NCBI GenBank assembly: GCA_010015675.1
Contig: ML977009.1
Coordinates: 102,497 to 119,229, forward strand
Direction of reading: 5' to 3'
Origin: Byssothecium circinans
Taxonomy: Eukaryota; Ascomycota; Dothideomycetes; Pleosporales; Massarinaceae
Length of the DNA stretch: 16,733 nt
The translations under genes and the position numbers were made by a program. This document shows positions 1,275 through 16,552 of the stretch, piece by piece. Every line of letters starts with the position of its first letter. The stretch's first letter is position 1. The notes beneath the pieces are model-generated. The model was given only the letters and a program-made list of their open reading frames with translations, had not been told where the DNA came from and made no database searches.

Positions 1275-2973
1275 TAACTATACTAATTAGAATGAGACTA
1301 ACACGAAGGCAGGCTATAGCTTACCTTTGCCGCATATAATAGAGGCTAATTTAATAGCTACCGACGCGCTGCTAAGGCCTTTAACATCAAACATCACGTC
1401 CTATTTAAATGAGCTAGAGGAGTACCTTTTTAACTAGAAATAGTTCTAAACAGTTTAAAACTATCCTTAACTAAAGAGGAGATAATTATCTAATACATCC
1501 TTAACTTTAATTCGCGAGGATTCACGCCTACGTTAAGCGAAGTATTAGATATAGCGAATAAACTACTACGCGAGCGAGGTAGTAACAAAGTAGGCATTAA
1601 CTAGTTAGCATAGTTTGTAAACTATTTAAAACTATTAAAAATAGCTTAGAACTATTTAAAGGACTATTAAAAAATACTATAAAAAGATCCTAAGGTAATT
1701 AGTACGTAGTTTAAGCTTATAGAAGACACTAAAATTAAGTATAGTATACATGATAATAATATCTATAACTTTAATAAGACTAGCTTTTAGATAAGTATTA
1801 TTAGTTCTATAAAAGTAGTTACTAGCTTAAAGAAGTAAGCAAGGCCTACTATTATTTAGCTAGGTGATAAAGAATAAGTAATGGACATCTAAAGTATACG
1901 TTTAAATAGTGAATATACCTTGCTATTTATTATCTATAAAGAACGCGTTTATATTTTTTCATAGTATTAGGAAGCTAATATACTACGCAATTAAAAGCTC
2001 TTTATCTTAGAGAATAAATAGATAATTAATAAGCTTAGCCTTACGTAGTTAAAGCACTTTAATGCGTATATAAAGGATACCATAGTAGGCGTCTATTAGT
2101 TACTAATTTTAGATAGCTACGAAAGCTACCTAAATTAAGATTTTAAGGATTATTGTTAAGATAATAAGATCTTTACGCTTTGTATGCTAGCGTACTTGTC
2201 ACACATCCTCTAGCTACTTAATGTAGTATTATTCTCGCTACTTAAGCGTAGGTACTTTAAGATCATTTAGGACTTAGCACGCTAACGCGTTTTTTATATT
2301 AATAAGGAAGCGTTTCTACTAGCCTTTAGAAACGCGTTTAAAAGCGTGTTTATGGTTTAAAACTATTAAAAGGCCTTTAAGGCGTTAGGGCTAGTTCCTT
2401 TAAATGCGTAGGTAGTACTTAATTACTTTAATATATATATATGTACTTTACTAGGACCCCTACTACTAAAGACGCTGTGGCAATTAAGAATACTAAGTAA
2501 TACACGTAAATTTAGCTTATAGTTAAAGTTTATACGTGATTCTATTACTTAATTACCACGAACGGCGCAAGGTAGGCTTTCATAGCTTGTTAAAGATACT
2601 AAATTAGTGCTGCTTAGTACTACGCTTATAAAATCGCGCATTAAAGAGCTTAAAAAGCAACTTAAAGTAATAACTAAGCGTAAAATACGCAAGCATAAGT
2701 ATATTTAAAAGGGTGGCACTATAGAGTATAGTCCTATAGTAGACTAGAATAGTTCTAAACTATTAAGAACTATTTAGAACTATAAGAGAGTAAAAGTAGA
2801 AAGTAAATATAAAGTATAATAACTAGATGTTTGCTACTACGGCAACTATAGTAAGGCTAGGCATAACGCGAGAACGTATTAAATAGATAAAGAGGGTTCT
2901 TCTAAGTTAGATGCTAGTACTTAGTATATTTTTTTAGATAGTGATGCGGACAATAATAATAATGAAGTTAAGT
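1275..2973 (+). pseudogene. Element 1 Fot1/pogo-type DDE transposase, RIP-inactivated
   Basis: The plus-strand frame shows an N-terminal HTH region (FNSYRRAAKAFNI, then 'TKEEIII-YILNFNSRGFTPT'), then IYNFNKTSF at 1761-1787, which corresponds to IYNFDETGF, so the first catalytic Asp is now Asn. LLILDSYES follows, with the second Asp kept at 2112-2114, then 'LNVVLF', with the third Asp now Asn at 2220-2222. Near the C-terminus is KARHNARTY, the degraded zinc-knuckle-like end seen in some Fot-type transposases. Dozens of TAG/TAA codons replace Gln and Trp. The 5' start is approximate. Confidence 0.75.
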
Positions 2974-5362: not shown

Positions 5363-5581
5363 TAGGTGCGAGATTCCAGCATTTAGCGAGGTATGCGGGA
5401 CGGAGGCAGCGAGTGTGGTTCGAGGAGGGAGGTCGGTCGTCAGTCGACGCTTCAAGGATAACGGGGGTTTTAAAGCTTGTTTTATTCGTCTCCTGCGGCG
5501 TCTAGAGTTCTTCTTGTCTTTAGCCCGTGTTAATACGCCTCTTCGCTGTAGTGCTTTCGTTAGGGGAGATATTCATTTCCG

Positions 5582-6115
5582 GTACGCAGGCCTATGGCCC
5601 ATCATGTCGAAGAAGAAACCATGTCTGGCACCGCCAGCCGCAAATGGCGACACCGCTGTCGCCGCGTGGGACACGGACGACAGCAAGGCCATGGTCATGC
5701 TGCTGTCGTCAGTGCATGACGATCTCACCATGTCTATCGCCAGCTGCGACACCTCGCCCGCTGCCTGGGAGCACTTTGCAAACCGATTCGATCGCGGCAC
5801 AGGTAACTCGATGACGATCTGAGGATGCACCTCGACGAGTTCCACCGCTGGTGGACTCGCATGGCTAAACGGGTGATAGGCTCCACGCAACCCGTCGCCG
5901 CCCGCCATGAGACCTGTGTTTGAGTCAGATGAAGTCAAGGGCTCATCTTCCTAGCCACCCTGCCAGACACCATGGACACGATCATAGACAACCTGTCCAC
6001 CCGCAATCTCGCTGCTTTTCAGGACATTGAGCCCAAGGTCCTCTCCATCTCCGAGATGCACTCCCTCGCCTCCGCCAGCTCCTCAACCGCATATGGTGGC
6101 TTTAGCGGTCACCGT
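5582..6115 (+). pseudogene. Ty1/copia-type Gag fragment, 5'-truncated and frameshifted
   Basis: In three successive frames the sequence reads AGLWPIMSKKKPCLAPPAA, then AWDTDDSKAMVMLLSSVHDD and CDTSPAAWEHF, then (after a shift at about 5812) DDLRMHLDEFHRWWTRMAKR, then (after a shift near 5930) LIFLATLPDTMDTIIDNLS and SEMHSLASASSSTAYG. This order and the 'AWDTDDSKA…AAWEHF' core are those of the copia Gag (UBN2-like) domain of fungal elements. The homology starts abruptly near 5582, so the open frame upstream (5415 on) is unrelated. Residual Gag similarity may extend to about 6240. No protease, integrase or reverse transcriptase follows. Confidence 0.75.
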
Positions 6116-10602: not shown

Positions 10603-10608
10603 AAAAAA
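10603..10608 (-). terminator. RNA polymerase III terminator of tRNA-Ser
   Basis: Six A on the plus strand are six T on the tRNA strand, beginning ten nucleotides after the discriminator base. No run of four T occurs inside the tRNA gene or its insert on the transcribed strand. Confidence 0.8.
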
Positions 10609-10618
10609 GACATTGATG

Positions 10619-10747
10619 CGACACCTCAGGGATTCGAACCCTGGCTCCCCTGTGTTTGTTAGTTGTACATCTTCGATTTTTATTTTGGGTAACCTACGAA
10701 GGAACAGGCTTAGCAGGCCTGCGCGATAACCACTCCGCCAAAGTGTC
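10619..10747 (-). tRNA. tRNA-Ser(GCU) with a 48-nt intron-like insert in the variable arm
   Basis: On the minus strand the acceptor GACACTT (10747-10741) pairs with AGGTGTC (10626-10620, one G-T), and the discriminator is G. The D-arm has a 3-bp stem GCG/CGC, as in tRNA-Ser. The anticodon arm is CAGGC-CTGCTAA-GCCTG with anticodon GCU. The T-arm is CAGGG-TTCGAAT-CCCTG. The A box (TGGCGGAGTGG) and B box (GGTTCGAATCC) are intact. The anticodon loop is not interrupted, so there is no canonical 37/38 intron. Between the anticodon and T stems are 61 nt instead of 13. Removing 48 nt (GTAGGT…ACTAAC…ACAG) leaves TTCCTTCGGGAGC, a TCC/GGA stem with a TTCG loop, giving an 81-nt canonical tRNA-Ser. TATA-like sequence lies upstream (about 10755-10790). 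Confidence 0.93.
10639..10686 (-). other. Spliceosomal-intron-like insert (48 nt) inside tRNA-Ser variable arm
   Basis: The insert starts GTAGGT (donor consensus GTANGT), carries ACTAAC (fungal branch consensus CTRAC) with its A about ten nucleotides before the end, and ends CACAG. The boundaries could slide by one G, but GT…AG is one of the two placements. It splits the UUCG tetraloop of the variable arm between C and G. It is A-rich on the transcribed strand, with no T-run that would stop RNA polymerase III. Two inferred introns of the nearby BTB gene are also 48 nt. Confidence 0.7.
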
Positions 10748-11069
10748 TTGATTTGATATATATGTTGAAAATTTTATAATATATATACTAATGCAAAAAT
10801 GCAGTCATGGAATGATGACCAAATCGTTTGAGGTGGAGCAGCGATGATGTCAACGAGGCTTGGCGCTCGCCTACCGCACTAGGCAGTCCCGCACCCGATC
10901 CTCTTAGCGACGCACGCCACGGATCGTATTCGTCGGTCAATGAAGGCATCAAGACATTAAACTAACGCTAACAAGCAGCGATAGCTCAGTGTCTGGTGTT
11001 ACCTACGCCTACGATAGGCTTTTCCACTATACTTATCCACGGAACCACATACCATTATTGGCGACAAAA
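10748..11069. other. No gene; AT-rich tRNA upstream flank, then nothing recognised
   Basis: Positions 10753-10795 are AT-rich with several TATATA motifs, consistent with TFIIIB positioning for the minus-strand tRNA. From 10800 to 11069 I see no coding or repeat signal. It probably includes the 5' region of the plus-strand pseudogene that follows. Confidence 0.5.
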
Positions 11070-15673: not shown

Positions 15674-16346
15674 CTATTGTCGTCGTCGTTTGCCGTTGTC
15701 CGTTTGGTCAGGTGGGGGGTGACGGGTTCGCATGTGGCGCTCATAGTTGTCTTTACGTGGGAATACGAGCGTGCATGGCGGGATGTTGCAATACCATCGC
15801 AGATGCGGCTCGTCTGAATGAATAGACCTCCTGTGGCGTGCCAAGTCTTTGGGGTAGCCAAAGGCGGCGTTGGGGCAATCTGCACACCGATATGGCTTTT
15901 CATGGTGGATTCGGTGGTGCTTCCTGAGCAAGGTTGTTAGCGAGAATATGGGAGGGCTGATCTTGAACTCACCTGAGGTCGCCTTGAGAGGAGCAAGCAC
16001 GACGGCATTGAGAGCATTGCAAGGCATCATTCGAGACGCTTTCGTCGTCGGGTTCTTCCAGAGGCGGAAAATCCCACACAGTGGAGTTGATGCCGCCAGA
16101 TTGAGAGAGCATATCGTCAAAGCAGGATAGCCAAGGGGAGTTGCCATATGCTTCTGGCGCAACTGGATTGGACGGTTGAGAACATGAACTCGGCGTTGAG
16201 CCACCGGGAGCAGATTGTGGACTGGGCAAGGAACGAGTGGATCGCTCGCAGGAGCAAATGAGATCATCTTGATCGGGCGGTTCACCGAATACAAATGGAG
16301 GCGGTGTTTGCGGGCTGTTGAAGGATTGTCGATCACCAGAGCATCT
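15674..16346 (-). CDS. C2H2 zinc-finger protein, three fingers, one clear intron; 5' end unresolved
   Basis: Exon 1 (to 15973) is read in the frame CSGDRQSFNSPQTPPPFVFG, GGSTPSSCSQPSNPVAP, WDFPPLEEPDDESVSNDA, then CSQCRRACSSQGDLR. A 49-nt intron (15924-15972, GTGAGT…GCTAAC…GCTCAG) splits the first finger and joins in phase to KHHRIHHEKPYRC. Finger 1 is C-x2-C-x12-H-x3-H across the intron. Finger 2 is C-x2-C-x13-H-x4-H (CADCPNAAFGYPKDLARH). Finger 3 is C-x4-C-x12-H-x4-H (CNIPPCTLVFPRKDNYERH). A basic tail ends GKRRRQ at the stop. The Pro/Ser-rich acidic N-terminal region could be an activation region, so a nuclear DNA-binding role is likely, target unknown. The exon is open to 16358 and may begin after an acceptor at 16347 (CTTAAC…GTCAG); no start codon was settled. 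The unspliced 268-residue open frame is wrong upstream of the intron. Confidence 0.75.
15924..15972 (-). other. Intron of the C2H2 gene (49 nt)
   Basis: GTGAGT donor, GCTAAC branch site, TTGCTCAG acceptor. Splicing rebuilds a complete first zinc finger (CSQC…HHRIH), which neither unspliced frame contains. Confidence 0.85.
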
Positions 16347-16552
16347 CTGACAAATTGGTTAAGGAGGGACCGGTTAGAGTCCCCCTCATCCACTAACGCC
16401 TCTGTTAGTAGGTTGTAATCATGGGATCCGGGTGCTCCATACACTGAGGGAAGTGATGTATCGCGATTCTTATCTGTCAAATTCGTAAGCTATTTCTGGG
16501 GACTAAGGAGTCCGAAAGAGACCAGTGACCCGCAGGATCTTATAGACGTTGA

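Follow-up and report, generated by a model that had tools for sequence, protein, structure and literature searches.

Introns in tRNA genes and in other non-mRNA genes

By standard teaching, tRNA and mRNA are spliced by distinct systems, each with its own enzymes. Introns of the mRNA type also occur in the U6 snRNA of some fungi, a polymerase III RNA. The tRNA genes described here resemble these U6 genes in carrying spliceosomal signals inside a short polymerase III gene; the difference is that U6 is a part of the spliceosome, whereas the hosts here are tRNAs. The U6 of this genome is intron-less, which counts against a spliceosomal reading of the inserts reported below. About 150 bases from the full U6 lies a shortened, inverted second U6-like copy (L098, positions 1754 to 1816, minus strand; 48.6 bits). 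Spliceosomal introns are also described from the nuclear rDNA of ascomycetes (Bhattacharya et al. 2000, cited in PMC8527467), and yeast removes one such intron from a polymerase I transcript (PMC8527467). Like these, the inserts found here appear to be ectopic spliceosomal introns in non-mRNA; the rDNA introns, however, belong to rRNA, polymerase I and a multicopy locus, whereas here they interrupt tRNA genes bearing polymerase III marks, and five of these eight have an added intron at 37/38. A 25-mer of 18S rDNA had no match in the assembly.

Introns of nuclear tRNA genes at 37/38 are described in reviews (PMC4090602, PMC3978253, PMC4033280). With such canonical introns, the substrates of the Sen endonuclease and tRNA ligase, our inserts share a nuclear tRNA gene as host. 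They differ from them in length (48 to 64 nt, compared with 11 to 32 nt for 21 canonical introns placed by ARAGORN in this genome), in position, and in their GU..CURAY..AG signals, and both kinds occur together in five of the eight. In archaea and a red alga, non-canonical tRNA introns are linked to cutting at bulge-helix-bulge motifs, while the mode of cutting in nucleomorphs is given as unknown (PMC4090602, PMC3978253, PMC4033280). The introns of archaea, Cyanidioschyzon, and nucleomorphs resemble our inserts in lying at several places, including the acceptor stem and the D and T arms, and in occurring more than once per tRNA. However, the archaeal and Cyanidioschyzon introns are associated with bulge-helix-bulge structures and the nucleomorph introns measure 3 to 24 nt (PMC4090602 for likeness and difference alike), whereas the inserts here fold into such structures no better than shuffled sequences and bear mRNA-intron signals.

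The initial annotation knew of no established case of a spliceosomal intron in a nuclear tRNA gene. Our literature search, covering titles and the starts of abstracts with most subscription papers and all preprints outside its scope, likewise gave no report of one. In their available text, two reviews of tRNA introns (PMC4090602, PMC4033280) contain no word starting with "spliceosom", and the rDNA-intron paper (PMC8527467) does not contain the word tRNA. The text available for the Cladonia grayi genome names nuclear rDNA introns and gives tRNA once, in an organelle-genome table (PMC6652019), and that of a Pleosporales paper on an 18S intron makes no mention of tRNA (PMC11889510).

A tRNA-Ser(GCU) gene with 48 extra nucleotides in its variable arm

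The window, by which we mean the whole 16,733-nt stretch analyzed, corresponds to positions 102497 to 119229 of its contig, within a 48.4-Mb assembly of 109 contigs. A TCP-1 theta exon from this assembly shares 94% identity with Ophiobolus disseminans and Massarina eburnea and 89 to 93% with the remaining named entries among the 120 matches listed of 4,759; almost all of these belong to the Pleosporales, and the host is thus probably a member of that order. A cmscan search with the Rfam tRNA model RF00005 found one tRNA in the window, at 10747 to 10619 on the minus strand, scoring 53.9 bits (cut-off, 29), above the curated score that we took to mark a nuclear tRNA gene. Model positions 1 to 71 are complete and the surplus letters are placed in the variable region, in agreement with the initial annotation, which had described intact tRNA parts around 48 extra nucleotides in the variable arm. 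ARAGORN with bacterial settings reported no tRNA in the whole window. Elsewhere in the window are a Copia-type gag fragment (5415 to 5822, plus strand; Pfam Retrotran_gag_2, E = 2e-9) and an open reading frame matching a C2H2 zinc finger (15674 to 16480, minus strand; Pfam zf-C2H2, E = 6e-6).

All parts of the gene lie on the minus strand. Exon 1 (10698 to 10747, 50 nt), delimited by cmscan with RF00005 and by ARAGORN on the joined exons, comprises the 5′ strand of the acceptor, the D arm, the anticodon arm, and the 5′ half of the variable arm, ending in TTCCTTC. Exon 2 (10619 to 10649, 31 nt) starts with GGGAGC and provides the 3′ half of the variable arm, a T arm with 5/5 pairs, the 3′ strand of the acceptor (7/7 pairs), and discriminator G. 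The anticodon, GCT (10712 to 10714; letters and ARAGORN), reads the serine codons AGC/AGU, and its loop is uninterrupted: the insert sits in the variable arm and not at 37/38, where canonical nuclear tRNA introns lie. This 48-nt insert (10697 to 10650), gtaggttacccaaaataaaaatcgaagatgtacaactaacaaacacag, holds the three signals pointed out earlier, namely, the 5′ splice site GTAGGT (10692 to 10697), the branch-site motif CTAAC (10658 to 10662), and the 3′ splice site ACAG (10650 to 10653). The predicted branch A would be at 10659, followed by 9 nt to the end of the insert.

Exact removal of the insert yields, as the initial annotation had it, an 81-nt RNA, which ARAGORN calls tRNA-Ser(gct); with the insert retained, the call is tRNA-Pyl. 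The joined exons give TTCCTTCGGGAGC, the uninterrupted variable arm of three sister tRNA-Ser genes with other anticodons (L005 to L007, two of the three identical), so that the boundaries of the spliceosomal-type intron restore an arm found elsewhere in the genome. The A box (TGGCGGAGTGG, 10730 to 10740) and B box (GGTTCGAATCC, 10630 to 10640) are unbroken, and a TATA-like element (10773 to 10778) lies 25 nt upstream of exon 1. The poly(T) terminator noted earlier is present as a T6 run (10603 to 10608) 10 nt downstream of the gene, a likely polymerase III terminator. The longest T run inside the insert is 2 and no TTTT occurs, which bears out the claim that the insert lacks T runs that would stop polymerase III.

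We searched for further copies of this gene with a fixed pattern of D arm and anticodon arm, allowing up to three mismatches; copies interrupted inside the pattern escape it. Three of the six matches have the anticodon GCU: the window gene, L046, and L048. Both L046 and L048 have a 37/38 intron and a normal TTCCTTCGGGAGC, but neither has GGTTCGA in its T arm or pairing of that arm over five positions. With RF00005, L048 scores 24.3 bits (cut-off, 29) and L046 gives no hit at E ≤ 0.5; a tRNA model, R1, gives the two copies 22.4 and 15.5 bits, compared with 40.4 for the window gene. Both copies are probably dead. Their acceptor, D, anticodon, and variable arms are intact (R1 match coordinates: L046, 1457 to 1539; L048, 1435 to 1540; both minus strand), and their trailers and T runs are similar. 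The T arms are broken differently in each and, besides the intron, are the most divergent part of the gene, like a B-box footprint. A DNA search of the genome with the window gene, of low sensitivity and missing the sister tRNA-Ser genes too, returned the gene itself only. A search for the tRNA-Ser 5′ half in viral contigs found nothing. Thus, within the pattern and DNA searches of an incomplete census, no other tRNA-Ser(GCU) with an intact T arm was found, and AGC/AGU serine decoding is accordingly predicted to depend on splicing of the insert.

Further interrupted tRNA genes and their splice signals

The initial annotation proposed looking for other tRNA genes with GT...CTAAC...AG inserts, and the same genome holds seven more. 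A genome-wide Rfam tRNA search gave 44 matches; since only 63 of 1,497 first-look candidates were scored, this census is a lower bound. We inspected the letters of all 44 and set eight aside by judgment (L029, L031, L032, L035, L036, L038, L040, and L043), either as repeats resembling tRNAs, as organelle-like, or for want of a proper anticodon. Among the remaining 36, which include the poor tRNA L039, 7 carry such an insert. Five of the matches set aside (L031, L032, L036, L038, and L043) belong to a dispersed tRNA-like repeat family (about GGTGGGATGGCTYAGTRGTAGAGTGCTGCAGCC...) on several contigs, perhaps SINE-like, and another two (L029 and L040) are related tRNA-like genes with similar upstream letters, to which ARAGORN gives a four-letter anticodon (tcac).

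The seven further inserts, of 52 to 64 nt, interrupt an acceptor stem, a D loop, or a T stem, at six places: after nucleotide 3 or 4 of the acceptor, at two places in the D loop, and after nucleotide 2 or 4 of the T stem. With slashes marking the boundaries, the T-stem inserts are those of tRNA-Lys(CUU) (L033; GCGG/GTTAGT..CTAAC..TTACAG/GTTCGA), tRNA-His(GUG) (L037; CTGG/GTAGGT..CTGAC..ACACAG/GTTCGA), and, after the second nucleotide of the stem, tRNA-Thr(UGU) (L041; ATCAC/GTAAGC..CTAAT..TTACAG/TGGTTC). D-loop inserts are found in tRNA-Arg(CCU) (L044; GCGCAAT/GCACGT..CTAAC..ACACAG/GGTAGC) and tRNA-Val(CAC) (L076; GTGGTA/GTAAGT..CTAAC..ATACAG/TGACG), the latter from a pattern search that required CTAAC and ACAG, so that its signals are not independent evidence. 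The acceptor stem is interrupted in tRNA-Thr(CGU) (L034; GCC/GTAAGT..CTAAC..AAGTAG/CGCATGG) and tRNA-Arg(ACG) (L042; GGAC/GTAAGT..CTAAA..ACCAG/GTGTGG). For tRNA-Thr(CGU), exon 1 was predicted to be GCC from the 3′ strand before the upstream letters were read, and GCC/GTAAGT was then found there.

With the inserts removed, all eight genes have 7/7 acceptor and 5/5 T-stem pairs, and ARAGORN calls each with one isotype: Ser(gct), Lys(ctt), His(gtg), Thr(tgt), Arg(cct), Thr(cgt), Arg(acg), and Val(cac). With the inserts kept, it makes no call for four of the eight, calls two tRNA-Pyl and one Pro, and recognizes Lys with both introns merged, so that the correct isotype is obtained in 1/8. The Rfam model recovered 7/8, with some exons misplaced. 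ARAGORN placed a second, canonical intron at 37 or 38 in five of the eight (Lys, both Thr, Arg(ACG), and Val), and those transcripts are therefore predicted to need two splicing machineries. At least eight nuclear tRNA genes, among them the one intact tRNA-Ser(GCU) gene found, thus carry 48- to 64-nt inserts with splice signals of the mRNA-intron type, and the spliceosome likely has to mature tRNAs too.

The intron-less counterpart whose search had been proposed was sought in the same genome and found for one gene: L016, a second tRNA-Arg(ACG), is a clean empty site for the insert of L042. Their 72-nt exons are identical (72/72), and the 56-nt acceptor-stem insert is in L042 only; their canonical introns and upstream DNA differ. 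For the window gene, no such counterpart with an intact T arm came to light.

The polymerase III signals of these genes are largely spared. In the DNA, the B box is unbroken in 8/8 interrupted genes and the A box in 7/8; in Lys and His, the last G needed for the B-box GG comes from the intron AG. TATA-like letters occur 18 to 51 nt upstream in 8/8, and the same rule is positive for 16 of 28 tRNA genes without such an insert. The distance from the end of these letters to GGAC is 36 nt in L042 and 33 nt in L016, a spacing that supports a transcription start before the 4-nt first exon. A run of five to eight T's starts at most 40 nt downstream in 8/8, and none of the eight has TTTT inside. Selection against T runs inside the inserts was considered and is not significant (chance product for no TTTT, 0.19; TTTT in 1 of 13 mRNA introns).

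We compared the inserts with 13 mRNA introns of the same genome, taken from stretches of seven chaperonin (TCP-1) loci and picked by open frame, GT..AG, and CTRAY; one likely intron of L113 without a clear CTRAY was excluded. Nine of the 13 junctions (L107, L108, and L112) are backed by gapless alignment to TCP-1 gamma, zeta, and beta chains of solved structures, which we take to be those of yeast. The L111 junction matches P0001, a Pleosporales TCP-1, by eye, and those in L109, L110, and L113 are based on the open frame. These introns are 46 to 60 nt long, with one of 101 nt; they start with GTAAGT, GTACGT, GTATGT, GTAGGT, and similar letters, and they end in AG. All 13 have CTRAY (CURAY) with 9 to 15 nt after the branch A, partly a selection artifact because CTRAY was used to choose them.

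The inserts follow the same scheme. Seven start with GU and one with GC, and all eight end in AG, as the terminal dinucleotides of U2-type introns do. Their lengths of 48 to 64 nt fall within the 46 to 101 nt of the mRNA introns, and a CURAY branch site of the host type lies with 9 to 12 nt after its branch A in 7/8. The exception is L042, whose weak branch motif CUAAA stands 5 nt before the insert end; this counts against a spliceosomal reading, as do the GC..AG ends of L044, whose A box is short of one G. The GUAGGU of the window gene is identical in all six letters to the 5′ end of an intron in the TCP-1 beta gene (L112). By contrast, with boundaries set by ARAGORN, 0/21 canonical tRNA introns show G[TC]..AG ends, and they are only 11 to 32 nt long.

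Shuffling was used to gauge how often such signals arise by chance. Among 20,000 mononucleotide shuffles of the window insert, G[TC]..AG in a register that preserves the product occurs in 0.8%, and with CTRAY near the end in addition, in 0.085%; over all inserts, with 20,000 shuffles each, the corresponding ranges are 0.2 to 1.9% and 0.03 to 0.26%. For the Ser, Lys, His, Thr(UGU), and Arg(CCU) genes, the five in which both boundaries are fixed by intact tRNA letters and which were found without a motif search, the product of the G[TC]..AG chances is ~3e-11. Motif patterns searched genome-wide were not enriched over reversed controls (24 versus 34, 4 versus 10, and 18 versus 18 matches), and the case hence rests on tRNA context, not on motif counts. 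Scanned with R1, the 24 matches of the first pattern contained the window gene, L071 (a tRNA-like gene close to one of the matches), and L060 (a partial match with a weak score), and the 4 matches of the second contained L076 and the gene of L044. The 18 T-arm matches were scanned as 17 loci, since the 18th overlaps another, and the Lys and His genes, already known, were the only ones to score. Introns 3′ of the B box were sought with a further pattern, which had 7 matches, versus 14 for its reversed control. L060 has a lone T-arm-like hairpin (~1494 to 1513, minus strand), GTGGGTTCGAGTCCCGC, preceded by ACTAACATTTAACAG; no 5′ tRNA half was recognized there, and it may be chance or a further split gene.

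Competing readings and the case for spliceosomal introns

We asked which other processes could account for such inserts. One is that the tRNA splicing endonuclease cuts them at sites resembling a bulge-helix-bulge, as in archaea, the red alga, and nucleomorphs. Such introns have many positions: archaeal ones lie at sites including 3/4, 45/46, and 53/54 and nucleomorph ones in D and T arms (PMC4090602). Introns at 37/38 are, moreover, in use in other tRNAs of this genome. However, the central helix has 1, 2, 3, 1, 1, 1, and 1 of 4 pairs in the seven testable genes (L042 in a shifted register only; Thr(CGU) left out, its first exon being too short), while ~61% of shuffled inserts reach 2 or more. 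Lys (2 central, 3 outer, and 2 inner pairs) and His (3, 2, and 1) pair somewhat better than the rest, the window gene has 1 of 4, and the set as a whole does not exceed the shuffles. Endonuclease cutting also leaves unexplained the GU..AG ends of eight inserts (GC in one) and the CURAY of seven, and we consider it very unlikely.

That the genes are dead copies, interrupted by insertions while unseen genes do the work, is a slightly fainter prospect still. Eukaryotic tRNA genes with short D- or T-arm insertions are, for the most part, presumed to be pseudogenes (PMC4090602), and our tRNA census is incomplete; against this, eight genes retain full acceptor and T-stem pairing after removal, TATA-like letters, and T runs, they share a splice signature, and no intact tRNA-Ser(GCU) was found elsewhere. 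We also weighed recent copies of one mobile intron family invading tRNA genes as well. Van der Burgt et al. are said to have described such introner-like elements in fungi in 2012. At E ≤ 10, however, and at the sensitivity of that search, the eight inserts match only themselves in the genome, the nine matches being the inserts and an inverted self-match inside that of Thr(CGU), and they have in common only words of 7 to 10 letters. With no other genomic match and no mutual likeness, they do not resemble recent copies of a single element, and this origin appears highly improbable. Finally, the insert might simply be retained in a functional tRNA with a variable arm of about 60 nt. Class II tRNAs tolerate changes in variable-arm length, and the uncut window gene still scores 53.9 bits, but retention is inapplicable to the acceptor-stem, D-loop, and T-stem cases. 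In addition, the uncut 129-nt RNA is no stabler than shuffles (z = −0.74), whereas the joined RNA is (z = −2.24), its minimum-energy fold having acceptor, variable, and T stems and no anticodon stem. We regard retention as barely credible.

The insert in the window gene is instead very probably a true U2-type spliceosomal intron in a working polymerase III gene, to judge from its letters and context. The initial annotation had read it as spliceosomal in type, and that reading is supported by the match to host mRNA introns, by the seven further genes, and by bulge-helix-bulge pairing not above shuffles. In this model, the gene would be transcribed by means of its own A box, B box, and terminator, and excision of the 48 nt at GU...AG by the spliceosome would give tRNA-Ser(GCU). 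U1 and U2 would need to recognize uncapped tRNA transcripts, a lariat would form during removal, and splicing would presumably take place before or together with end trimming. Transcripts of the five genes with both kinds of intron would need the tRNA endonuclease and ligase besides the spliceosome. As for origin, the inserts possibly arose by reverse splicing, as the initial annotation suggested, in which case the donors would have since diverged; at E ≤ 10, the genome holds no donor copy for any of the eight.

More broadly, we find it quite probable from these comparisons that spliceosomal introns are a standing, functional part of tRNA genes in this lineage, acquired on many occasions in acceptor, D, variable, and T arms and nearly always sparing the internal promoter. 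Several transcripts would then pass through both the spliceosome and the tRNA endonuclease, one after the other, on their way to maturity, and the decoding of serine AGY codons would be spliceosome dependent. Introns of the mRNA type in tRNA genes thus likely extend to the spliceosome a job known so far for a dedicated tRNA-splicing enzyme. An unusually clean test of intron gain is offered by tRNA genes, in which a sister copy can show the empty site. If the findings are confirmed, tRNA finders can miss or misname such genes, as seen here for ARAGORN and the Rfam model, and fungal genomes seemingly without some tRNA isoacceptors deserve a renewed search. Confirmation would also mean that polymerase III transcripts with first exons down to 3 nt (plus leader) are spliceosome substrates, that two splicing machineries act on one tRNA, and that the translation of one codon pair hangs on the spliceosome.
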